64,000 nt of DNA from positions 248,001-312,000 of the forward strand of contig NZ_CP108455.1 of NCBI RefSeq assembly GCF_036241575.1. The letters are read 5' to 3'. Within the stretch, counting starts at the first letter, position 1. Each line of letters opens with the position of its first letter. This stretch comes from Streptomyces sp. NBC_01267. GTDB lineage: Bacteria; Actinomycetota; Actinomycetes; Streptomycetales; Streptomycetaceae. Under the pieces are notes generated by a model. The model was not told the DNA's origin. It searched no databases and saw only the letters and a list, made by a program, of their open reading frames with translations. Position numbers and translations under genes: made by a program. Positions 9,768 to 22,016 of the stretch are shown in pieces.

Positions 9768-12551
9768 CTATCGAGCAGTAGGGACGTCACTTGTCGACGG
9801 GTCCGGGAGTTGCCCGTGACCGCGGTCGGGTGAGGCTGATGAGTTCGGAAGGCGTGCCGGGAGTTGGCGGCGCGAGGTGATGTTGAGTTTCGGATAGATC
9901 CGGTACAGGTGGTAGCCCACCGTGCGCGGGCTGAGGAACAGGCGGGAGCCGATGTCCTTGTTGGTCAGCCCCTGCGCCGCGTAGCGGGCTATCTGAAGCT
10001 CTCGGGGAGTGAGGTCCTGACCGCTGGTGGGCGGCGTGGCGTCGAGGACACCTGCTGCGCGCAGTTCTGTGTGTGCCTGTTGCGTCCAGGGTGTGGCCCG
10101 CATCATCCGGAAGTGCTCCACGGCCTGGTGCAGATGGTGCCGGGCGGACTTGATCTCGTGGTGGCGGCGTAACCACTGCCCGTACAGGAGATGAGTACGG
10201 CCGGTTTCGAACCCGGAGACGCAGGGCGCGGCAAGTGCGTCGGCAAAGTGGTGACCGGCTTTTTCCGCCGGCGCCAGCAGCGCCTTGCACCGGTGCCATG
10301 CGGCGCGGAGCGAGGGTGAGAGCTGGGGCGCGGCCCGCTCTTCGAACTGCAGCAGCGCCGCGCCCGCCCGATCGCGCTGCCCCACCCGGACCAGGGCCTC
10401 GACCAGGTCGGGGATGACCAGCCGGCTCAGCATGAAGTGCTCTGCCGTGCCGCCGGGGGCGGTGACTTCGCTGAGCGGGCCGACTGCCTGCCGCGGCCGA
10501 AGGCTGCTGAGAGCGTCCAGTCCCTGTGCCCAGCGCGCTATCGCGGCGGCCGACGCGGCCCGGCGGGGCATGGACACCGCAAGGGACGCCTCGGCCAGTT
10601 CATGGCAGCGGGCGGAATCGCCCTGGGCCGCGGCCATACACGCCAGCAGGGCCTGGAGGTGGCAGGCAGCGATGGACTGGCCGGTCTCCGCGGCGAGGGT
10701 GAGTGCTTGTTCGCCGAGCGCCGCCCCTTCGGCCCACCGGCCGGTGACCAACTGCGCGGCCACGAGCGAGGTGAGGGCCACCGGTAGGGCCCCCGAAGCA
10801 CCGGACGCCCGCAGGGCGTCGACCGAACGCCGCTGTGCGTCGAGCCCGGCTTCGCCGTCTCCCATGAGGTACGGCAGGAACACGGGAGGCCACACAACAG
10901 GCCCGAGGCCGAGGGTCGGCGCCCACCCGTCGCTCGGAGGTGAGCACCGTACCGCAGGCTCTCCGGCCGGTTCCTCACCCCGGCCCACGTCTCCCATGGA
11001 GCGTAATTGGTCGAGACGTTGGCTCCTGTCCGTGGTTTTCTCCAGAGGGAGCAGGGCCAGTAGGCCGGCTATCTCCGTCAGCTTCGCCGGGTGGCTGGCG
11101 CCCCATGCGGCGCGGGCCGCCAGCAGGAGGCACTCCTCCGCCAGCTGGGGTGCATGGGACCGGGCGAGTCGCGCGCTGTGCAGGAGCGTGTCGCAGGCGA
11201 GGGCGGGCGCGCTGCCGGCATGCAGCATGGTGCCGCGCACACAGGCAACGCGGGCCTGTAACTCCGTTGTGTGCTCCAGGAGTTCGACCTCGGCCAAAAG
11301 CGCCTGGGCCTGGGCCGGCTCGGCCGCGGCCCAGGCGCACTCGGCAGCCTCCACCAACCACCGCGCGGTGGCCGCGGGGATGGAGGAGAGTGCCGCGGCG
11401 CGGCGTAGCGCGCGGACGGCGGACGCCACGCCGCCGGAGCGCCGGGTCCGGTCCGCGAGACCGGCAAGGAGACGGGCGACCGTGTCGTCGGGAGGTGTGG
11501 CGCAGGCCGCGAGATGCCAGACGCGGCGGTCGTCCTCCTGGTCGAGGGCACCGGCCAGGGCCCGGTGGGCGGCGCGGCGCCGGCTGGGCGCTGCGGCCTG
11601 GTAGGTCGCGGAGCGTACCAGGGGGTGGCTGAAGCTGACCCGTTCTCCGCGCACGGTGATGAGCCCGGCCTCTGCGGCCCCGTTCAGTACGTCCATGGCC
11701 GTGTCGGCGTCGTCGGCGGCGTTGAGGAGGGTGCGAAGCTCGCCGTCGCGCTCGGCGGCGGCGAGCAGCAGGGGGAAACCGTATGCGGCGGCGCGGCGAC
11801 AGAAGATCTGCCGTACCCGCTCGCTGAGCGGCAACTGGTCGGGCAGCGCCTGGGCGCCTGTCAGTTGCTCGTCACTGAGTGCGGCCGGGAGTTCGGCCAG
11901 CGCCAGCGGGTTGCCCTCGGCCTCCGTCAGCAGACGCTTGTACACGGAGGGAGCCGCCCGCGGCGCGTGCTGGTCCAGCAGGCGCCGCGCGAGCGCGGTG
12001 GGCAGGGGCCCGAGCCGCAGTTCCCGGGCCCCTGAAACGGGGACGGGTAACGTTTCCTCATCGCAGACCGCGAACACCATGGCCACCCGTGCCGACCGGA
12101 GCCTGCGGGCGGCGAAGGCGAGCGCGGCCGCCGACTCCTCGTCCATCCAGTGCGCGTCGTCCACGACCACGAGTACGGGTGCCTGCCGGGCGGCTCTCGT
12201 GAGCAGGGCGAGCACGGCCAGGCCGACGAGGAGCGGCTCTGCGGAAGATGCGTTCATGCCGAAGGCGCCGCGCAACGCGTCAGCTTGGCGGTCGGGCACC
12301 AACTCCAGCGCCGGCAGCAGGAGGTGCAGCAGCTGGTGCAGTCCCGCGAACGGCAGTCTGACCTCACTCTGCGTTCCGTCCGCCCATAAGACCTGCGCGG
12401 GGGGCTCCACCTGCTGTGCCACGTGGGTCAGCAGTGCGCTCTTGCCGATGCCGGCACCGCCGCGCAGGAGTACGGCACTACTTCGGTGACTCCGTGCGGC
12501 GTCGATGAGCCCCAGAAGGTCTCGGATCTCCCGGTCTCGCCCTTCCAACAT
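9768..12551 (-). CDS. LAL-type LuxR-family ATP-binding regulator
   Basis: Large transcriptional activator of 927 aa. It has an N-terminal AAA/STAND ATPase with Walker A GGAGIGKSA (31-39) and a Walker B-like VLVVVDDAHW, a long helical repeat region, and a C-terminal LuxR helix-turn-helix (LTPRELQIARYAAQGLTNKD onward). LAL regulators commonly control natural-product clusters. This one is divergent from the RiPP cluster that begins at 13123 and is the best candidate for a pathway regulator, although it could act elsewhere. GGGAG lies a few nt before the ATG at 12551. Confidence 0.88.
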   Translation of the reverse strand: MLEGRDREIRDLLGLIDAARSHRSSAVLLRGGAGIGKSALLTHVAQQVEPPAQVLWADGTQSEVRLPFAGLHQLLHLLLPALELVPDRQADALRGAFGMNASSAEPLLVGLAVLALLTRAARQAPVLVVVDDAHWMDEESAAALAFAARRLRSARVAMVFAVCDEETLPVPVSGARELRLGPLPTALARRLLDQHAPRAAPSVYKRLLTEAEGNPLALAELPAALSDEQLTGAQALPDQLPLSERVRQIFCRRAAAYGFPLLLAAAERDGELRTLLNAADDADTAMDVLNGAAEAGLITVRGERVSFSHPLVRSATYQAAAPSRRRAAHRALAGALDQEDDRRVWHLAACATPPDDTVARLLAGLADRTRRSGGVASAVRALRRAAALSSIPAATARWLVEAAECAWAAAEPAQAQALLAEVELLEHTTELQARVACVRGTMLHAGSAPALACDTLLHSARLARSHAPQLAEECLLLAARAAWGASHPAKLTEIAGLLALLPLEKTTDRSQRLDQLRSMGDVGRGEEPAGEPAVRCSPPSDGWAPTLGLGPVVWPPVFLPYLMGDGEAGLDAQRRSVDALRASGASGALPVALTSLVAAQLVTGRWAEGAALGEQALTLAAETGQSIAACHLQALLACMAAAQGDSARCHELAEASLAVSMPRRAASAAAIARWAQGLDALSSLRPRQAVGPLSEVTAPGGTAEHFMLSRLVIPDLVEALVRVGQRDRAGAALLQFEERAAPQLSPSLRAAWHRCKALLAPAEKAGHHFADALAAPCVSGFETGRTHLLYGQWLRRHHEIKSARHHLHQAVEHFRMMRATPWTQQAHTELRAAGVLDATPPTSGQDLTPRELQIARYAAQGLTNKDIGSRLFLSPRTVGYHLYRIYPKLNITSRRQLPARLPNSSASPDRGHGQLPDPSTSDVPTAR

Positions 12552-13122
12552 TCCGATGCTCCCGCTCCGTAGGTGGCTCAGGCTGTACGTCGGCGTATTC
12601 CCGTCGCGCCATCGCGTGGTTCTGCCTGGCTTGACGATCGATTGCCCCTGTGCGCACTCCGGGACGGGAAAGACGGCTGGATGTGGGTGGTCATCGTGCG
12701 CGAAATGCCGCCAGCCACGCGCGGGCAGCGAACGCGGCCGGATACGGCTCCGGAAACCCGCGGGACACTCCGTGACTGCGACGCAGAAGAGGTTCCCACC
12801 ACTCGCTAACGATGCCCTAGCGGCTGGTAACGGTGGCCTGTTAGTGCGTCCAGGGCGGCGCGGTCAGTGCGTTCGAGGCACCGTTCCCGGCCGGTCGGCG
12901 CGGCGGACGGCCTCCGCCCGTGCCTCTCCGTGGGGCGGCCCGACCGACTTGACGATCTCTTGACCATCGCGGCAGCGCCCCCAGGACCAGTCGGATGACA
13001 GATACCGGCCGCCCGTCGCCCTGCGCACAGTAATGACCACGGACCGCACGCCGGGGGCACCGGTCCGCAGACCCGATCACGACGCGGGCTCCGGTCACGG
13101 ACGCAGAACCGAGGGAGAGGGT
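12552..13122. other. Divergent intergenic region between LAL regulator and RiPP cluster
   Basis: About 570 bp without a convincing gene on either strand. It must contain the promoters of the LAL gene and of the methyltransferase gene. No strong dyad was seen. A 12-codon frame at 12994-13032 lacks a ribosome site and was not called. Confidence 0.5.
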
Positions 13123-13938
13123 ATGACAGTTGCGGAGACGGACGCTTCCGAGCACGCACTGGCGACGTATGAACCGTTGGCCCACTTCTACGACTTGTTC
13201 ACCCGGCACGACGACTACCCCCGGTGGTGCGCCCTCCTTGACGACCTGCTGCACCGCCACCGCGTACCGGGCAAGCGGCTGCTGGACGTGGCCTGCGGGA
13301 CCGGCAGGAGCACGGCCGCGTTCCGCGATCTGCACTACGAGGTGTCAGGTGTCGACCTGAGTGCGGCGATGATCGCAGAGGCCCGGTCCAAGGCGGCGAA
13401 CCGGGGCATATCCTTCCAGCAGGGCGATATGCGCGACCTGCCCGGCACAGGTCCGGGCCACGACGTCGTGCTGTGCATGGACGACGCGGTGAACAACCTC
13501 CTCGACGACGCCGGACTCAGCAGCGCGTTCGCCAGTGCGGCACGGGCACTGCGCCCCGGTGGGCTGCTGGTATTCGACGTGAACACCCTTCGTACGTACA
13601 GGAATTGGTACGCACACGACGAGGTGTCACACGAAGAGGACACCGTCTTCGTCTGGCAGGGGCACTGCGGACCCGGACACCCGGAGGGCGCCCTGGCCCG
13701 CGCCGACCTCACCGTCTTCGCACGGGACGAGGCCACCCCGCTGTGGCGACGCTTCGAGGCGCCGCACCTTCAGCGTCACCATCCCGAGTCCCGCCTGCGC
13801 TCCGCGCTCCGCACGGCCGGCCTCGACGTCCTCCGCGTGTACGGCATGCGTCCCGGGACCGCGGACGTCGACGACACGCTCGACGAGGAGCGGCACCACA
13901 AGGCGATCGTCATCGCCCGCCGGCCGCCGACCGGCTGA
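13123..13938 (+). CDS. Class I SAM-dependent methyltransferase
   Basis: Methyltransferase of 271 aa with motif I LLDVACGTG (53-61), an acidic end of strand beta-2 (GVDLSAAM) and motif III-like GGLLVFDVN. The ATG at 13123 has a GAGGGAGAGG ribosome site, so the upstream in-frame ATG at 13033 is rejected. It lies 72 bp ahead of a short peptide gene and heads a run that continues with radical SAM, MFS and LanB genes, so it probably methylates the modified peptide. A role elsewhere in metabolism cannot be excluded. Confidence 0.85.
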   Translation: MTVAETDASEHALATYEPLAHFYDLFTRHDDYPRWCALLDDLLHRHRVPGKRLLDVACGTGRSTAAFRDLHYEVSGVDLSAAMIAEARSKAANRGISFQQGDMRDLPGTGPGHDVVLCMDDAVNNLLDDAGLSSAFASAARALRPGGLLVFDVNTLRTYRNWYAHDEVSHEEDTVFVWQGHCGPGHPEGALARADLTVFARDEATPLWRRFEAPHLQRHHPESRLRSALRTAGLDVLRVYGMRPGTADVDDTLDEERHHKAIVIARRPPTG

Positions 13939-13948
13939 CCCATGGACT

Positions 13949-13970
13949 CCGGGCGTCAGCAGACGTCCGG
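13949..13970 (+). repeat. Hairpin upstream of peptide gene
   Basis: CCGGGCGTC (13949-13957) pairs with GACGTCCGG (13962-13970) through nine pairs (one G-U) around a 4-nt loop, just after the methyltransferase stop. Together with the hairpin at 14106-14146 it brackets the peptide gene. It may be a processing or stability element. Confidence 0.55.
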
Positions 13971-14010
13971 TGCACGAGCACCATCCCCTCATGGAAAGGA
14001 AGTACTGATC

Positions 14011-14100
14011 ATGGAGCACACCGAGGAGACCATCGTCGTCTTCGACACCGAGGAAGCTGCCGACACCTGTGGCGTCCGGACCGGCACCCCGGCTCGCTGA
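14011..14100 (+). CDS. Putative RiPP precursor peptide (29 aa)
   Basis: A 29-codon gene too short for routine calling. A good ribosome site (AAGGAAG, 8 nt before the ATG) and position between modification-enzyme genes support it. The N-terminal 18 residues are acidic (Glu/Asp at 2, 5, 6, 12, 14, 15, 18) with a hydrophobic IVVF patch, as expected of a leader. The C-terminal part TCGVRTGTPAR (19-29) holds the only Cys (20) and three Thr (19, 24, 26), the residues LanB and radical SAM enzymes act on. A 5-codon frame (13991-14008) overlaps the ribosome site and may be incidental. The leader/core boundary and the modifications are inferred. It matches no precursor family I recognise. Confidence 0.65.
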   Translation: MEHTEETIVVFDTEEAADTCGVRTGTPAR

Positions 14101-14105
14101 TGCCG

Positions 14106-14146
14106 GCCCGGGGAGGGCGCGCCGGTACGACGTGCCCTCCCCGGGC
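14106..14146 (+). terminator. Strong hairpin between precursor and maturase genes
   Basis: Arms of 15 nt (14106-14120 and 14132-14146) pair with one G-U wobble around an 11-nt loop, 5 bp after the precursor stop. No U-run follows. Such attenuating stems are common after RiPP precursor genes and let the peptide be made in excess over its enzymes (known pattern; its function here is inferred). Confidence 0.75.
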
Positions 14147-14196
14147 TCAGCCATCTCATGGGCATCACACACTCAGATGTGCCGAGACGAGGAACC

Positions 14197-15363
14197 ATGC
14201 GACTGATCAGAGGCGAGGCGAACTGGTGGTGCCTGTCCGGCCGGAAAGTGGCCAAGCTGCCGTCATCCGCCGTGACAGAGAACGGCGAACTCACCGCCGG
14301 AGCACGGGCCGAACTCGACGGCACCGGTTTCTTCGCCGTACCGCCGGTCGACCGCTTTCATCTCACCGTGCTCACCAGCAGCGCCTGCAACCTGGGGTGC
14401 GCCTACTGTTTCCAGAACACCGGGGCCGCTCCGGAGGGCACCTACCGTCCACCGCGCATTCCGCAGATCGCCCTCACTGCCCCGGTCATCGACGAGATCC
14501 TGGTCTTCGCCCGGGAACGGATGGCCGCGGCGGATCTCGGCAAGCTCCACCTACTGCTCTTCGGCGGTGAGCCACTGCTCAACCGTCAGGGCTGCTACAC
14601 CCTCCTGGACCGAGCCGCCGGCGCCGGTCTCGCGTCAGCCGAGATGATCACCAATGGCACCCTGCTGACCGCCGACACCGCGCGCACACTCGAAGGACTG
14701 GGCCTCGGCCGGGTGCAGATCACCTTTGACGGCGACCAGGAACACCACGATGTGAGCCGGGTCAACCGGATGGGCCGTGGCACGTACGACCGGATCGTGC
14801 GCAACGTCTCACGCAGCGCGGAGGCCACCGGCCTGCGATGGCACTTCCGCATCAATGTCGCCACCCCGTCGATAGAGGGCATCGACGCGCTCATCGACGA
14901 CCTTGCTGCCCGGACACCCACAGAGCGGTGTGCGATCAGCTTCGCCACGGTCGACGACGTGGGCATCGGCTACGAGTACGCCCCCGCGGCCACCGCCGCG
15001 CTCGCGCAGCGGCGCAAGAGCTGGAACGCCAGGGCGCTGTCGTACGGGTTCACCGTGCCGCTGCCCCAGCCGATCACCCGCTGCCCCTACTGCGCACTGC
15101 GCAGCGGCGCGACCGGTGCCGTGGTCAACGCCGACGGCACGCTCTACAGCTGCTGGGAGTCGGCGGGCAAGGAGGGGTGGGAGGTCGGCCACATCCGCTC
15201 CGGCTACCTGCCCGACGAGGTCATCACCCCACGCTGGGTCGCCTGCGACTACGACGTGCGGCTCACCCCCGACGCGGCGCGGGCCGAGTCACAGATCGGC
15301 GACCAGGTGGACGCCTCACTGCTGGACCTGATGTACCTCAAGGGGAAGCTGGGTTCGGGGTGA
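14197..15363 (+). CDS. Radical SAM peptide maturase, SPASM/Twitch-like C-terminus
   Basis: Iron-sulfur enzyme of 388 aa. The radical SAM motif C64-x3-C68-x2-C71 (ACNLGCAYC) binds the SAM-reducing 4Fe-4S cluster. Further Cys at 296, 299, 319 and 350 suggest an auxiliary cluster of shortened SPASM or Twitch type. Family members install thioether or carbon-carbon cross-links, or epimerise residues, in ribosomal peptides. The ATG at 14197 follows GAGGA and is preferred over the ATG at 14158, which has no ribosome site. The gene sits directly after the precursor and overlaps the MFS gene by GTGA. Which of the Cys or Thr residues it modifies is unknown. Confidence 0.87.
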   Translation: MRLIRGEANWWCLSGRKVAKLPSSAVTENGELTAGARAELDGTGFFAVPPVDRFHLTVLTSSACNLGCAYCFQNTGAAPEGTYRPPRIPQIALTAPVIDEILVFARERMAAADLGKLHLLLFGGEPLLNRQGCYTLLDRAAGAGLASAEMITNGTLLTADTARTLEGLGLGRVQITFDGDQEHHDVSRVNRMGRGTYDRIVRNVSRSAEATGLRWHFRINVATPSIEGIDALIDDLAARTPTERCAISFATVDDVGIGYEYAPAATAALAQRRKSWNARALSYGFTVPLPQPITRCPYCALRSGATGAVVNADGTLYSCWESAGKEGWEVGHIRSGYLPDEVITPRWVACDYDVRLTPDAARAESQIGDQVDASLLDLMYLKGKLGSG

Positions 15364-16622
15364 GCGGTGCCTCCCTGGATCCGTCGGCGAAGGCCGCGGA
15401 CCGTGGCGGCATCCCCGCAGGGGCACGCCGGCCTCTGGCCCGCCTGGCGCTGGCGACCTGGGTCTCGACGGTGGGGAACTGCTTCACCACCGTGGCGCTC
15501 GCTCTGGCGGTGGCCGGTCTTCCGGGCTCCGGGGCCGGTACGGTCGCCGCCGCTACCGCACCCACCGTGGTCGGTACGCTCGCGAGCGTACTGGCCGGGG
15601 GTGGGCTGGCCGACCGCTGGAACCCCCGCTCCCTGATGGCCGGCGCCGAGCTGACGTGCGGCGCGGTGCAGACCGTCACCTTCGTCCTGTTGGCCGCCGG
15701 GCCCGGTACGGGCATGCTCTGGGCGCTGGGCGCACTGTCGTTCCTCCGCGGGCTCGCGAGTGGGGTGACCGGGCCCGCCGCGCGGGCGATACTGCCGCGC
15801 GTCGTCCCACCGCACGCCCTGCAGCGCGCCAACGCCGCTCTGCGCACCGGGATGTCACTGAGCGTCATCGTCGGTCCGGCGCTCGCCGGCTGGTGTGCGT
15901 CCGCAGTCGGTCCGGCGGAGGCGATCGCCGCCGATGCCGCGTCCTTCTTCCTCGCCGCGGCTCTCCTGTACCGCATCCCGGTCCGCGCCGCGGCCCCACG
16001 TCACCCACCGGTACAGGGATTCCGGCGCGAACTGCGCGAAGGGCTGGCCGAAGTCGTCGGCCGGCGGTGGCTCCTGCTGGTCATCGTCCAGGCCGCCGTG
16101 CTCAATCTGGTGACCCTCGGCCCCATGCAGGTGCTGGCCCCGCTCGCCGCTCAGGAGGGCTACTCGGGGGCACGGGGGTACGCCGCGTTCCTCACCAGCG
16201 CGGGCGTCGGCGCGGTCCTGGGCGGCATGCTCATGCTGCGCTGGGCGCCGAAGCACCCTGTCCTGATGTGCTCGGCCGTGATGGCGGCCTTCTGCCTGCC
16301 CTGCCTCGCCATGGCGGTGCACGGTTCGTGGTGGCAGGTGACGCTGGCGTACGGACTTCTCGGCACGGCGGAGGGGATCTTCGCCATCCTGTGGTCCACC
16401 GCGCTGCAGCGTGGCGTGCCCGCCGGGGTGCTGGGCCGGGTCAGCGCCTGGGACTTCCTCGGCTCTTTCGCGTCCCTGCCTCTGGGCATGGTTCTCGCGG
16501 GTCCCATGACTGCCGCCCTCGGGCTGGACGACTCCTTGCTGGCCATGGGTGCGGTGGGCTGCTGCGTCGTCGCGTGGCCGCTGCTCTGGCCCCGGGCGCG
16601 GAGCGCGCTGCGCGCCGTGTGA
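15360..16622 (+). CDS. MFS exporter of the RiPP cluster
   Basis: Major facilitator of 420 aa with about twelve membrane segments and the loop motif GGGLADRWNPRSLM (about residues 80-93). The GTG start at 15360 overlaps the stop of the radical SAM gene (GTGA), so the two are co-translated. By position it should export the mature peptide or give self-resistance. RiPP clusters of the lanthipeptide type more often use ABC exporters, so an MFS pump is slightly unusual. Confidence 0.85.
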   Translation: MSGASLDPSAKAADRGGIPAGARRPLARLALATWVSTVGNCFTTVALALAVAGLPGSGAGTVAAATAPTVVGTLASVLAGGGLADRWNPRSLMAGAELTCGAVQTVTFVLLAAGPGTGMLWALGALSFLRGLASGVTGPAARAILPRVVPPHALQRANAALRTGMSLSVIVGPALAGWCASAVGPAEAIAADAASFFLAAALLYRIPVRAAAPRHPPVQGFRRELREGLAEVVGRRWLLLVIVQAAVLNLVTLGPMQVLAPLAAQEGYSGARGYAAFLTSAGVGAVLGGMLMLRWAPKHPVLMCSAVMAAFCLPCLAMAVHGSWWQVTLAYGLLGTAEGIFAILWSTALQRGVPAGVLGRVSAWDFLGSFASLPLGMVLAGPMTAALGLDDSLLAMGAVGCCVVAWPLLWPRARSALRAV

Positions 16623-16648
16623 CACGGCGTTCTCCCCGTACCCGCTTC

Positions 16649-16698
16649 CCATCCGTATCCATCCTTGTCCATCCGTGTCTATCCGCATCCATCCGTCA
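16649..16698 (+). repeat. Five tandem decamers before lanB
   Basis: Five imperfect copies of the 10-bp unit CCATCCGTRT fill most of the 86-bp gap between the MFS stop and the LanB start. They end just before its AGAGGAG ribosome site. The leader is untranslated; the repeats may affect mRNA structure or may be slippage products. Confidence 0.8.
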
Positions 16699-16708
16699 GA
16701 GGAGTGCC

Positions 16709-19700
16709 ATGCCTGCCGCAGAACCGCCGTTGTTCTCCTGTGCGGACACGGTGACCGTCCGGCTGCCCGTGCGCCCGCGGGAGCTGGTGCGGCACTACGG
16801 GGAGCCCGTGGCGCACGGCGCGCCGGACGAGAGCGACCGGCTGGCCGGCTACCTGGCCGTGGCCGCACGCGACGCGCCTCTCCTGGAGGCGATCACCCTG
16901 GCCAGCCCTTCGCTGCGGCAGCGGCTCGACTCCCTCCGCACAGGCCCGCGCCCCGGGCTCGGCGTCTTGCGCAAAGCCGTGCGTGCCGTGGTCGGCTACC
17001 AGCTGCGGATGGCTTCGCGCTCCACCCCGTACGGCACTTTCGCGGCCGTGGCGCTCGCCCGGATCGGCACGCCGGGCGAGCGCGCACGGGCGAACGTGGG
17101 CGAGGACCACCGCCGCGGGGTGCGCCCGGACACGCAGTGGCTGCTCACTCTGGTCTCCCTGTGGGAGCAGCGCCCGGAGGTGGCCGACCGGCTCTCGGTG
17201 GTGACCAACTCACTCGCCGCCTCCCGCGGCGACCGGCTCGTGCTGAGCTATGTCGCGTCCTTGCAGACCGACCGGCTGGCCCGGGGAGGTGAGCGGGGGC
17301 GCAGCGGCACGTTCTTCGAGCTCGCGCTGCCGCGTACAGACGTGGCCGAATCGGCCCTTCGGGAGGCCCGGCGGCCCATTCTGCTGGGGACGTTGAGGGA
17401 GGAACTGGCCAGGGCCTTTCCCCGGGACGCCGTGGATGCCGCACTGACCGCCCTGGTGCGGCGGGAGTTCCTGCTGACAGATGCGCGTCCCGACGCACAC
17501 GAGGAAGACCCGATCGCGGCGGTGCTCGACCGGCTCGACGGCGTGCCGGACGTACCCGAGCTGTCCGCGCTGCGTGAGATACACCAGTTGCTCGCCGATT
17601 ACGGCGCCGCCCCGCCCGGTGCCGCACTCCACACCCTCGACCATGCACGGCGGGCGATGGCCGAGCTGCTGCCCGGTGAACCGACAGCGGTCCACGTGGA
17701 CCTGGCCGCCGATGCGGATCTCCTCCTGCCCGCAGAAGTGGCGCGGGAAGCGGAGCAAGCGGCGGAAGTCCTGTGGCGGCTCTCCCCGCCCGGCCCCCCG
17801 CAGGAACTGCGCCGCTTCCATGAGGCGTTCACGGACCTGTACGGGACCGGGGTCGCGGTTCCGGTCCTCGAACTCCTGGATCCGGATACCGGGTTGGGGC
17901 CTCCCCAGGGCTACCGGCATCCGCCGGTACTGCGGCAGAACCTGCCTTCCCTCCTCTGTCCGGACGCCCCGGAGCGCGTACGGCTGCTCGCCGACATCGT
18001 CTTCGACGCCGTCCGTTCCGGCCGACAGGAGGTGGAACTGGATACGGAGTCGCTCCGCCGCCTCGACCGCACCCCCGAAGGCGGCCAAGCCGTCGGCCCC
18101 CCACGGTCCACGGACTTCCCCGCCCGGCTGCTGGCACGCGGCACGGCCGAACTGGACGCCGGTCACTTCCGGCTGTGGCTGACCACCGGGCCCGGCTCGG
18201 ACCTCGCGGGCGCGGCATCGGCCCGCTTCGCACACGCCCTGGGGCCCGCGAGGAGTGACCTCCTCCGCGAGGTGGCGCGGCGCTCCGCCACCCAGTACGC
18301 ACCGGAGCTGACTGCCCAACTGGACTGCCGCCCGGTCCCGTTCCGCAGCGGGAACATCACCCGGCTGCCGCACTGGACGCCTCACCGGCTGCCTGTCGGT
18401 CTGTACGCCGACCCTGCCGACCCGCTGACCCTCGTCCCCTCGGACCTGGCAGTAGTGGCCGACGACCGGCGCCTGCGGCTGGTCTCACTCAGCCGGGACC
18501 GCGAGGTCGTACCGCTCTCCTTCCACATGCTGGAATTCGAACGGCATGCCCCCAACCTCGCCCGTCTCCTCAGTGAGATCCCCATGACCGGGGCCCGGCC
18601 GTGGCAGAGCTGGGACTGGGGCTCACTGTCGGCGGCCCCGTTCCTGCCGCGCGTCCGCTACGGCCGGACCGTACTGACCGCTGCCCGCTGGCGGCTGGAC
18701 ACCAGGCTCTCTCCGCCCGCCACGGCCGAACCGGTCCTCTGGACACAGCACTTCACTGCCTGGGCCGAGCGGTCGGGGCTGCCTCGACGCGTGCTGCTAG
18801 GCACCGGCGACCAGCGCGTGGAAACCGACCTGACCTGCGCCGCGCACGTGGAGCTGATACGTAAGGAAGCGGCCCGGGGGCTGCCGGTGACTCTGGAGGA
18901 GGCGCCCTTCCTGCCCGGTCCGACCGGCCCCGACCCGGGAGACGGCTGGCTGACCGGCCCGGCGGGAGCGCACGCGAACGAGGTGGTCTTCCCGCTGTTC
19001 ACCCACCGGCCGGCCGGCGCCGCCGCTCCCCGCCGGCTACGCCCCCAGCTCGTCGAGTCGCCTCATCTCGTGGGCGGCCCCTGGCTGTACGCCAAGCTGT
19101 ACATCGCGTACGAACGGCACGACGAGGTGATCGGAGTCCACCTGCCGGAATTGCTCGCGCACATAGGTGACCACGTGGACCGCTGGTTCTTCCTGCGGTA
19201 CGGCGACCCCGATCCGCATCTGCGGGTGCGGTTCCACGGCAGCCCCCAGCGGTTGACGCGCGAGGTGCTTCCGGCGCTGCACACCTGGGCCGAGCGTCTG
19301 CGCGCGGACGGACTCCTGGGGCGGGTGGTCCTGGACAGCTACCGACCGGAGACGGCCCGCTACGGCGGTCCCCGAGCACTGAAGGCTGCCGAGAGGGCGT
19401 TCCAGGCCGACAGCGAACTGGTAGTGGCACAACTCTCCGCGCTGCGCGAGGGATCGCTGAGCGGCGACCCGGTCGTGCTGTGCGCGGTCAACCAACTCGA
19501 TGCCCTCCGCGCGACGGCCGGCCCGGAACCCTGGGCACCGTGGCTGCTGGCCCGGTACCCGCGCACCCCGCAGACCGCCTCCGTACGCAACCGGCAAAAG
19601 CTCCTTGACCGACTCCTCGACGGCTCTCCCAGCCTCCTCTCCCCCGGCTCACCCGCTCCAACGCTGGCCCGACTCTGCGGTCCCGGCCCGCTGGCCTCTG

Positions 19701-19924
19701 CTGCGGCGAACCGCGCCGAGGCCTTCGCTCGGTACGGACAGGTAATAAGCGACCTCGGCCGGGGAATCACCGCAGAGGAAGGGCAGCACACTCCCCTGCC
19801 TTCACTCCTGCACATGCACTACAACCGCGCGGTATGCATACCACCCGCAGGCGAGGACACGGTCCTGGTACTGGTACGGAACACCGTGCAGGGTCACCTC
19901 GACCGGCAGACTCAGCGGCGATGA
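16709..19924 (+). CDS. Full-length LanB-type lantibiotic dehydratase
   Basis: Peptide dehydratase of 1071 aa, close to NisB in size. The N-terminal part carries the LanB hallmark MASRSTPYGTF (101-111) of the glutamylation domain. The C-terminal SpaB_C elimination domain shows WFFLRYGDPDPHLRVRFHG (about 826-844), DSYRPETARYGG (about 875-886) and HMHYNR (about 1034). Known LanB enzymes use glutamyl-tRNA to glutamylate Ser/Thr and then eliminate to dehydro-amino acids; here Thr 19, 24 and 26 of the precursor are candidates. AGAGGAG lies 6 nt before the ATG. No LanC cyclase gene lies nearby. Thioether closure may therefore be done by another enzyme, occur spontaneously or not occur. Confidence 0.9.
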   Translation: MPAAEPPLFSCADTVTVRLPVRPRELVRHYGEPVAHGAPDESDRLAGYLAVAARDAPLLEAITLASPSLRQRLDSLRTGPRPGLGVLRKAVRAVVGYQLRMASRSTPYGTFAAVALARIGTPGERARANVGEDHRRGVRPDTQWLLTLVSLWEQRPEVADRLSVVTNSLAASRGDRLVLSYVASLQTDRLARGGERGRSGTFFELALPRTDVAESALREARRPILLGTLREELARAFPRDAVDAALTALVRREFLLTDARPDAHEEDPIAAVLDRLDGVPDVPELSALREIHQLLADYGAAPPGAALHTLDHARRAMAELLPGEPTAVHVDLAADADLLLPAEVAREAEQAAEVLWRLSPPGPPQELRRFHEAFTDLYGTGVAVPVLELLDPDTGLGPPQGYRHPPVLRQNLPSLLCPDAPERVRLLADIVFDAVRSGRQEVELDTESLRRLDRTPEGGQAVGPPRSTDFPARLLARGTAELDAGHFRLWLTTGPGSDLAGAASARFAHALGPARSDLLREVARRSATQYAPELTAQLDCRPVPFRSGNITRLPHWTPHRLPVGLYADPADPLTLVPSDLAVVADDRRLRLVSLSRDREVVPLSFHMLEFERHAPNLARLLSEIPMTGARPWQSWDWGSLSAAPFLPRVRYGRTVLTAARWRLDTRLSPPATAEPVLWTQHFTAWAERSGLPRRVLLGTGDQRVETDLTCAAHVELIRKEAARGLPVTLEEAPFLPGPTGPDPGDGWLTGPAGAHANEVVFPLFTHRPAGAAAPRRLRPQLVESPHLVGGPWLYAKLYIAYERHDEVIGVHLPELLAHIGDHVDRWFFLRYGDPDPHLRVRFHGSPQRLTREVLPALHTWAERLRADGLLGRVVLDSYRPETARYGGPRALKAAERAFQADSELVVAQLSALREGSLSGDPVVLCAVNQLDALRATAGPEPWAPWLLARYPRTPQTASVRNRQKLLDRLLDGSPSLLSPGSPAPTLARLCGPGPLASAAANRAEAFARYGQVISDLGRGITAEEGQHTPLPSLLHMHYNRAVCIPPAGEDTVLVLVRNTVQGHLDRQTQRR

Positions 19925-20248: not shown

Positions 20249-20290
20249 CAGGTCACCGCGTCCCTGGGGCTTTCCAGGTCACCGCGTCCC
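20249..20290. repeat. 16-bp direct repeat at protease 3' end
   Basis: CAGGTCACCGCGTCCC occurs at 20249-20264 and again at 20275-20290. The second copy contains the last codons and stop of the serine protease gene, so the 3' end has been partly duplicated. Confidence 0.75.
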
Positions 20291-21196
20291 CGACGGTTTC
20301 GGCAGTTCGCACCCTGCTGCCGCCAGGTCGAGCTTGTTGCCCGTGGTGAAACACGCCGGGATGCCGTACGTCTCCTCGGCGTAGCCGATGCCCTCGCGGA
20401 TGGTCACGGTGCCCTGTTCGTCCACCTCGCAGGGGTTGTCGAGGGTGCAGCGTTCGCCGCTCTCGTTCGTGGTGTTGTTGATCGCCGTGATCTGTCCCGT
20501 CGTCGTGTCGATCACCGGAGAGCCCGAAGTGCCACCGATGACCTGGCATTCCGGGGTGTAGCGGACGGCGTCCTTCCACGTCCACTGATCCTCCTTGAGG
20601 CGGTACGCGAACCCGTCGACCGAGCAGGAGTAGGCCTGTTTCCAATAGCCGGAGACCACGTTGACCGCGTGGCCCTGCACCGGGTGGGTGGCGGACAGCG
20701 TCAGCGGGGCTATCCCGGTGGATTGCTGTATCTGGGCGTAGGTCTTGGTCAGTTGGTAGATCGTCACGTCGGTGTCGGTCATCGTCGAGTAGACGACCTG
20801 GTTCGCCTTGAGCGTTCCGGCGCTGCCGGCCGAGGCGTTGAGGAGCGTGAAACTGCGGGTCGATGACTGGCCGGTGATGACCTGGCCTGCGCTGGGAAAG
20901 CCCGTTTCGAGGCAGTGGCCGTTCGTCATGACCAGCGCGGGGTCCGTCGACTGCGAGTTCGGCATACGGACCAGGGAGCCCGAACAGTTGCTGAGTGCGA
21001 CCGTGCCGGCGAATGAGGTGGCCCGAGCCGCTGCGGGGGTCACCTTCCCGCCGTCCGGATGCGCGCCCGGCGTCGTGACGGCGGGGGCCGCACGGCCTCC
21101 CCCGGCCGGGGCCGCGGCGGCCGTGCCCGCAGTTCCGGCCAGGGCGGCTGCGCCCAGGGTGAGCGTGGCCAGGGTGGCAAGGAGAGGCTTGCGCAT
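20279..21196 (-). CDS. Secreted trypsin-like serine protease
   Basis: Exported endopeptidase of 305 aa. Residues 1-31 form a Sec signal peptide ending in AAAAPA. The catalytic triad is visible as His94 (MTNGHC), a probable Asp143 (TDTDVTIYQL) and Ser224 in GGTSGSPV, with several Cys pairs for disulfides. GAGAGGAA precedes the ATG at 21196. It faces the RiPP cluster tail to tail. A role in removing the peptide leader outside the cell is possible, but an independent extracellular protease is just as likely. A GCATTGTC / GACAATGC dyad lies 61 bp upstream. Confidence 0.87.
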   Translation of the reverse strand: MRKPLLATLATLTLGAAALAGTAGTAAAAPAGGGRAAPAVTTPGAHPDGGKVTPAAARATSFAGTVALSNCSGSLVRMPNSQSTDPALVMTNGHCLETGFPSAGQVITGQSSTRSFTLLNASAGSAGTLKANQVVYSTMTDTDVTIYQLTKTYAQIQQSTGIAPLTLSATHPVQGHAVNVVSGYWKQAYSCSVDGFAYRLKEDQWTWKDAVRYTPECQVIGGTSGSPVIDTTTGQITAINNTTNESGERCTLDNPCEVDEQGTVTIREGIGYAEETYGIPACFTTGNKLDLAAAGCELPKPSGTR

Positions 21197-21256
21197 GGTG
21201 GGTTCCTCTCGGATCAGCCCGGGAGCCGACCGGCACCCGGACGTCGAAGGGTCGCT

Positions 21257-21280
21257 GCATTGTCCGCGTACCGACAATGC
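21257..21280. promoter_or_regulatory. Inverted repeat upstream of the protease gene
   Basis: GCATTGTC (21257-21264) and GACAATGC (21273-21280) form a perfect dyad with an 8-bp spacer in the protease promoter or leader region. A regulator site is likely; the protein is unknown. The rest of 21197-21590 holds no gene. Confidence 0.6.
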
Positions 21281-21590
21281 GCCCGCTACCCTGCGGTTCC
21301 CTCCTGACGCGTTTCGCACTGTTGACAACCTCCGTATCCGGCACCACCGTTCGGGCGAGTTCGTCTCACGAGCCCGTCCTGCCCACATCGCTCCCGAGAG
21401 CACGAGGAGGCCGCAGCCGCCGCCTACGACGCACACGGCCGTCTGCACGGGGTGGGAGCAATTCGTCTCCGGACCGGACGTGCCCGCGCCTGCGAAGTCA
21501 CCTGCCCGCCGGCCTCGCCGGAGTACTGAGCAAGAAGCGAGGCGCCCCGGCGAGACATGTCGCCCCGGGCTCGCGGTGGCGCCGACGGTC

Positions 21591-22016
21591 TCACGTGTGA
21601 TCGTGCGTCGCTCCCGCTCTGTTGACGGCGACGTCCCGGAGCGGCCCGTCGGCCCTCTCGGTGCCGCCCCCGTCCTCCGGCCGGGACACGTCCTCGATGC
21701 CCGGATGGCGGCGAGCCGATACGACGAGGCAGGCGACGGCGCCGAGGAAGACCACCACAGAGGTCCAGTTGTTGAGGCGCAGGCCGAGGAACGTGTGGGC
21801 CTCGTCGATGCGCAGGTACTCGGTCCAGAACCGGCCGACCGTGTAGGCGGCGACGTACAGGGCGAAAGCCCTGCCGTGACCGAGCGCGAACCGGCGGGTC
21901 GCCCAGAGGACCAGTGCGGCGACGCCGATGTCCCAGAGGGACTCGTAGAGGAAGGTGGGGTGGTACGTCGCGACGTCGGTCGCTCCGTAGGAGGCTCGGT
22001 CAAACGGACTGGTCAT
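21591..22016 (-). pseudogene. lgt: C-terminal fragment of prolipoprotein diacylglyceryl transferase
   Basis: 141 codons corresponding to the last third of Lgt, which attaches diacylglycerol to lipoprotein Cys. The retained part reads YHPTFLYESLWDIG, then VGRFWTEYLRIDEAHTF and two membrane segments. The N-terminal membrane segments and the catalytic His and Arg motifs of the full enzyme (about 280-320 aa) are absent. Upstream bases to 22078 do not encode them, so it cannot be a working Lgt. Streptomyces carry complete lgt copies elsewhere (known). No ribosome site precedes the first ATG. Confidence 0.75.

Follow-up and report, generated by a model that had tools for sequence, protein, structure and literature searches.

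The LanB dehydratases of class I lanthipeptides (MibB, NisB) are full-length proteins that carry both a glutamylation and an elimination domain, as does the LanB described here, whereas LanB proteins of the PEARL type (peptide aminoacyl-tRNA ligase) have no C-terminal elimination domain. Nosiheptide-type thiopeptides combine a radical S-adenosylmethionine (SAM) enzyme with LanB-type dehydration, and they need YcaO and a split LanB. The maturases of ranthipeptides and sactipeptides (CteB, PapB, NxxcB, TIGR04463, CefB) are radical SAM enzymes of the SPASM/Twitch type with small Cys-bearing precursors, and the radical SAM enzyme studied here resembles them in both respects. PMC9062424 mentions a Mucilaginibacter lappiensis cluster in which a lantibiotic dehydratase occurs together with two radical SAM enzymes. 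Here, we analyzed a stretch of 64,000 nt from Streptomyces sp. NBC_01267 (C1:248001-312000, hereafter the window), which contains a small gene cluster for a putative ribosomally synthesized and post-translationally modified peptide (RiPP). In this cluster, a LanB of a kind often paired with the cyclase LanC adjoins a radical SAM enzyme of a kind that is otherwise LanB-free. A product that would carry both dehydro-threonine and a radical-made cross-link is plausible, as an earlier note on this DNA had proposed.

Organization and conservation of the cluster

Five genes followed one another on the forward strand in an operon-like row. The first encoded a class I SAM-dependent methyltransferase (13123..13938, with another possible start at 13033; Methyltransf_25), and the second a 29-aa precursor peptide, MEHTEETIVVFDTEEAADTCGVRTGTPAR (14011..14100), which was read directly from the DNA and had the ribosome-binding site GGAAAGGAAG directly upstream. 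They were followed by a radical SAM/Twitch peptide maturase of 388 aa (14197..15363; Pfam Radical_SAM), a major facilitator superfamily (MFS) exporter (15360..16622; MFS_1/MFS_3, with TIGR00900 under its cut-off) whose first 4 bases overlapped the end of the radical SAM gene, and a full-length LanB-type dehydratase of 1071 aa (16709..19924). Reading of the open reading frames (ORFs) confirmed this order on one strand, which the earlier note had reported. No second convincing precursor was seen by eye between the cluster genes. The top NCBIfam match of the methyltransferase was daptide_MTase, with 59.5 bits against a cut-off of 175, and a daptide was therefore dropped as a candidate.

A collection of species genomes, scanned once with the radical SAM protein as the query, gave 22 loci. 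The radical SAM protein was 100% identical in Streptomyces sp. A 4/2 (L040), which is the same species as the window, and 89% identical in Streptomyces sp. ASQP_92 (L041), a second species; in the remaining loci the identity was at most 49%. The five genes had the identical set and order in the window, L040 and L041. The peptide was conserved in the homologous locus, too: 28 of 29 aa (84/90 in the DNA) were identical in L041. Five of its codons differed, four of them silently and one changing Pro to Lys. Between the window and L041, 1007/1167 bases of the radical SAM gene were identical, and the two gaps flanking the peptide had 53/75 and 79/99 identical bases; the peptide was the best conserved among the parts compared. 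These comparisons indicated that the 29-aa ORF is more than chance. The ratios of nonsynonymous to synonymous substitution rates (dN/dS) were 0.24 for the methyltransferase, 0.14 for the peptide (with few sites), 0.18 for the radical SAM gene, 0.27 for the MFS gene and 0.29 for LanB, indicating that all five genes are under purifying selection.

Beside the cluster, the DNA at 9862-12664 of the window matched L041 at 77.5% identity, and the block common to both spanned from inside a divergent regulator to LanB. Among the close relatives listed by the protein searches were the radical SAM enzyme (89%) and LanB (77%) of NPDC006691, whose entries sit on contigs both 686565 long, and the LanB of NPDC048111 (72%). 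Among 120 near genomes, the radical SAM protein was found at E 1e-150 in its own genome only, so the cluster is rare. A plasmid collection held no match to it at E 1e-40, and spread on plasmids was therefore ruled out of consideration.

A strong hairpin (14105..14147, forward strand) lay behind the stop of the peptide. The folds of the 99-base gap there reached -53.5 kcal/mol in the window and -66.0 kcal/mol in L041, and the stem was altered on both sides between these two sequences. It is possibly an attenuator that yields more precursor than enzyme. The divergent regulator (9768..12551, reverse strand) was of the LuxR family, LAL type with an AAA ATPase domain (Pfam AAA_16 and GerE), and is probably the pathway regulator. 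On the other side, an open frame at 20253-22003 (reverse strand) faced LanB and looked by eye like a secreted protease. It is probably not the leader peptidase, because it lies outside the block common to L041.

LanB and the search for LanC and YcaO

The LanB protein matched Lant_dehydr_N with 563 bits and Lant_dehydr_C with 168 bits, both over the cut-off (PF04738 and PF14028). Its closest solved structure was 5ehk (400 bits, residues 35-1067), which we take to be MibB of the microbisporicin pathway. Of 67 columns with a conservation of 93% or more among 117 further LanBs, it kept 65, the differing ones being A113 and A686. The conserved residues kept included R18, R100, R104, T106, D141, R839, R841, E881, R884 and H1035; these are presumably the catalytic residues known from NisB, only partly visible in the 5ehk comparison. 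The statement of the earlier note that both the glutamylation and the elimination domain are kept was thus borne out, and in this feature the cluster agrees with class I lanthipeptides. The PEARL type was dropped on account of the C-terminal domain.

Neither LanC nor YcaO had a match within the 64-kb window, in line with what had been noted before. LanC-like (PF05147) matches in the whole genome were at C1:92967 and C1:2.73 Mb, the nearest ~167 kb from the cluster, which thus holds no LanC cyclase of the class I type. YcaO was matched at C1:7.25 and 7.67 Mb, which in contig coordinates is >6.9 Mb from the cluster. A thiopeptide was dropped, because there was no YcaO in the cluster and LanB was one protein. 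On the split LanB, which the earlier note had held to be absent, the single protein agreed with that claim at the locus, and no genome-wide search was made for a stand-alone Lant_dehydr_C (PF14028) gene. Lant_dehydr_N had one further match in the genome, at C1:7.67 Mb in an 872-aa frame adjoined by a YcaO match (C1:7666475-7670011); this is probably a distinct cluster of an azole- or thiopeptide-like type.

In a sample of the genus, with the own genome set aside, LanB had 27 matches at E 1e-110, and LanC lay within 5 kb in 21 of them. One of the six matches without LanC (G008) was at a contig end. Heuristic ORF calling in four of these six LanC-free loci, with G225 left out, gave no called ORF with CxxxCxxC.

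This frequent pairing, together with the two distant LanC-like places in the genome, would fit a class I lanthipeptide. In that case LanC would act in trans or the ring would close spontaneously, Cys20 and dehydrated Thr24 or Thr26 would form methyllanthionine, and the radical SAM enzyme would carry out an epimerisation, a C-C bond formation or an oxidation. Cys20 and Thr24 would form a small ring. However, no LanC is near the cluster, and the DNA common to L041 stops at LanB. The peptide has no FxLD motif of the class I leader and reads FDTE instead. Cys peptides also accompany related radical SAM genes in LanB-free loci, and the Cys is therefore more likely the target of the radical enzyme. 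We considered this explanation unlikely. It and the other alternatives discussed below are not mutually exclusive.

The radical SAM family and its precursors

The radical SAM enzyme had CxxxCxxC at residues 64/68/71, followed by Cys 296/299/319/350 in a Twitch-like arrangement. Six of these seven Cys were invariant in 62 aligned rows and Cys319 was kept in 90%. It thus carries the CxxxCxxC and SPASM/Twitch cysteines of thioether-RiPP enzymes. It did not reach any curated maturase family of NCBIfam (best 113 bits, with cut-offs of 525 and 600), and none of seven family members scanned was over any curated cut-off. The top models for the family were the TIGR04463, CefB, geopeptide and PapB maturases, with 78-124 bits against cut-offs of 340-600; PapB, a ranthipeptide maturase, was therefore among the nearest curated families while staying below its cut-off. 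An AlphaFold model (pLDDT 86, pTM 0.87) matched 5wgg/5why best among PDB entries (TM 0.64-0.65, root mean square deviation above 6). The title of 5wgg names thioether formation, and we take both entries to be CteB. Further fold matches were 7vob (BlsE), anSME, ChlB and SkfB.

It may also be that the radical SAM enzyme makes no thioether and that the change at the xCG motif is an epimerisation, a C-C or C-N link at the side chain of Cys+3, or backbone splicing. The epimerase EpeE, SuiB and anSME among the fold matches and the scores far under the curated cut-offs are consistent with this. Cys chemistry is favored instead by the closest curated families and the top fold match, and also by 45 peptides of the family that we listed: all had at least one Cys and 26 exactly one, in a list for which Cys was one of our criteria. 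We regard a product without a thioether as somewhat unlikely.

Relatives of the enzyme at E 1e-60 were found in 19/295 genomes of the genus and 23/150 of the family, the own genome counted, and 631 out of 7,997 scored candidate proteins matched at E 1e-40. We therefore gave up the view that the cluster stands alone and has no relatives. In a tree of 62 rows built by a quick method, the window, L040 and L041 formed one clade with a long stem. The enzyme belongs to a large family in Actinobacteria whose members appear to modify peptides. For the comparison of loci, 61 radical SAM loci were used, excluding the fragments L060 and L061, and a set of 57 was obtained by removing the duplicates L040, L054, L145 and L146. 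Methyltransferase homologues (E 1e-20) were near 14/61 loci (10/57 without duplicates), an MFS match (E 1e-3) was in 31/61, and S9 prolyl oligopeptidase was near 34/57. Some loci carried a P450 or another extra enzyme. The earlier note had called the gene set unusual. This stands for the combination and not for a stand-alone oddity, as the radical SAM gene, and in part of the family the methyltransferase too, recurs in LanB-free radical SAM peptide loci.

The own genome had a second, LanB-free cluster whose radical SAM enzyme is from this family (L037, C1:7436000-7455999; radical SAM at C1:7445421-7446569). It contained a three-repeat peptide (VVAH...WCGVHQE), the radical SAM gene, an MFS match, an S9 prolyl oligopeptidase (Pfam) and a 372-aa protein with no Pfam match at 1e-5; upstream was a gene from a family whose member in L027 is a P450.

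A LanB match was detected in two of the 61 loci, L040 and L041, both in the clade of the window, so LanB appears to be a rare, lineage-specific addition. Its absence from the other 59 means that the core pathway needs no LanB, and would fit a LanB that is only an aminoacyl-tRNA dependent ligase, or that acts on another substrate and was carried along; the pathway would then yield the usual product of this radical SAM family, with methylation in addition. We judged this decidedly improbable: the elimination domain is present with its conserved residues, unlike in the PEARL type, and LanB is under purifying selection and occupies an identical position in two species.

Short peptides occurred near many relatives; most carried a single Cys in each unit, and in some two Cys were close to each other. 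L037, the second copy of the own genome, had repeats of PEVVAH...WCGVHQE, four loci (L039, L053, L055 and L057) had EVICGVYDKE or ICGV[YF]DK peptides, and L125 and L132 had C[VI]INTGT peptides. Others were MKIEIFETTERVVCGINL in L046 and MEIDVYEMEDEARDVCGVKG in L051. The latter two candidate precursors (L046:9821-9877 and L051:9768-9830, the second with another possible GTG start upstream) had just 18 and 20 residues, and to our knowledge candidates of this length are among the shortest RiPP precursors. In Streptacidiphilus jeojiense (L057:7082-9870), five candidate precursor ORFs were ahead of one radical SAM gene, with varying cores such as CGVFDKD, CDLYTKD, CTIYDP, CSVYTQD and CPLYVSD. Peptides of five relatives had no meaningful match in NCBIfam; one had weak matches to ClpS models under the cut-off.

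Small ORFs with a ribosome-binding site, from 5 kb upstream to 2 kb downstream of the radical SAM gene, were searched for a '[VI]xAH...C'-like or '[VIT]CG[VI]' motif. Such an ORF was found in 48/57 loci (18/19, 14/18 and 16/20 by batch), compared with 2/36 control pieces (~8 kb each, taken around LanB within the same genus) and 8/57 stretches that started 2.5 kb past the radical SAM gene in the same loci. The motifs were picked after many loci had been seen, so these counts are descriptive and not a blind test. The window peptide had the CG motif and lacked the '[VI]xAH...C'-like one, and CG[VI] was common to it and to peptides adjoining some related radical SAM genes.

In the 44 loci where a motif peptide accompanied the radical SAM gene, the S9 peptidase was nearby in 17/19 loci with Pro 1-2 residues before the Cys and in 10/25 without it. 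This pattern suggested that the peptides of those relatives are cut directly ahead of the Cys. In the window, the peptide lacks Pro at that site, and none of the cluster genes was seen to encode a prolyl oligopeptidase. At Cys+3, His, Tyr or Asn was present in 36/60 distinct contexts from the 45 listed peptides, which are related and not independent. This recalls, in reversed direction, the Cys23-Asn20 link of NxxcA (PMC8326336). We did not retain a Cys-His link involving the VVAHS His, as the spacing varied by eye. A Thr tail was likewise rejected as a LanB-specific mark, because NTGT tails also occurred in LanB-free loci.

Proposed pathway and comparison with known systems

As the best explanation of the whole, to which we give an even chance, we propose a small RiPP cluster with the radical SAM enzyme acting at Cys20 and LanB at Thr; Cys20 and Thr19, Thr24 and Thr26 are the candidate modification sites. 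In the pathway that we infer, the hairpin behind the peptide gene would keep the precursor in excess over the enzymes. The radical SAM/Twitch enzyme would recognise the N-terminal part IVVFDTEEA (EVVAHSEE in many relatives) and oxidise the segment around the single Cys20. The sulfur of Cys20 would most likely be linked to a nearby residue, either Arg23 (Cys+3) or an acidic residue before the Cys, and a thioether at Cys20 would be the probable product of this step. With glutamyl-tRNA, LanB would dehydrate one or more of Thr19, Thr24 and Thr26 to dehydrobutyrine, which would remain as such, given the lack of a nearby LanC gene and the prior use of Cys20. The methyltransferase would add a methyl group, a protease encoded elsewhere would cut the leader, and the MFS protein would export the product. 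LanB would have been added to an older LanB-free radical SAM pathway.

Several points weigh against this pathway. The fold match of the radical SAM enzyme is loose, and other matches were not thioether enzymes. Arg23 of the window peptide stands at Cys+3, where His, Tyr or Asn would be expected from the relatives, and the two close Cys in some family peptides mean that the single-Cys rule is not strict. The TGT tails beside relatives without LanB (NTGT in L125, L131 and L132) mean that the Thr tail is no specific mark of LanB. No leader protease is encoded in the cluster, LanC could act in trans given its proximity to most LanB relatives, and the radical SAM enzyme and LanB could act on different peptides.

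More broadly, and with somewhat less than even confidence, the locus may belong to an undescribed, widespread actinobacterial RiPP class in which a radical SAM enzyme acts at the Cys of an xC-x-[VIL]-x motif in precursors that can be as short as 18-29 residues. Here it would be merged with LanB, giving dehydrobutyrine beside a radical-made Cys ring with no LanC needed. If true, a radical SAM peptide pathway has acquired a dehydratase with no cyclase alongside it, and a large radical SAM family with tiny or repeat-built precursors is exposed outside LanC-anchored genome mining, of which PMC7268733 gives an example. A precursor of this length can be made synthetically, which makes the reactions of both enzymes directly testable.

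Searches of the open literature for the gene combination, the radical SAM family and the peptide strings gave no described match, in agreement with the earlier note, which knew of no described class with this combination; subscription papers and preprints were mostly outside this scope, and a description may exist there. A related prediction is the Mucilaginibacter lappiensis cluster, in which radical SAM and lantibiotic dehydratase are predicted to co-occur as in the window, so the hybrid prediction has a precedent in what PMC9062424 mentions. By that description it is set apart by six precursors, two radical SAM enzymes and an alcohol dehydrogenase. Compared with class I lanthipeptides, the window cluster has no LanC nearby and no FxLD-type leader, and it has a 29-aa precursor with adjoining radical SAM and methyltransferase genes. 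Unlike in nosiheptide-type thiopeptides, YcaO is only far away and LanB is a single protein. The ranthipeptide and sactipeptide maturases differ in that the window enzyme scored 78-124 bits against their cut-offs of 340-600, has four auxiliary Cys only and is accompanied by LanB. The actinobacterial '[VI]xAH...C'/'CG[VI]' radical SAM clusters share short Cys precursors and radical SAM enzymes mostly 38-50% identical to that of the window, but 59/61 have no LanB and 34/57 have an S9 prolyl oligopeptidase nearby. As a RiPP with known enzyme superfamilies the cluster is of a known kind, while its combination and its radical SAM family look new.

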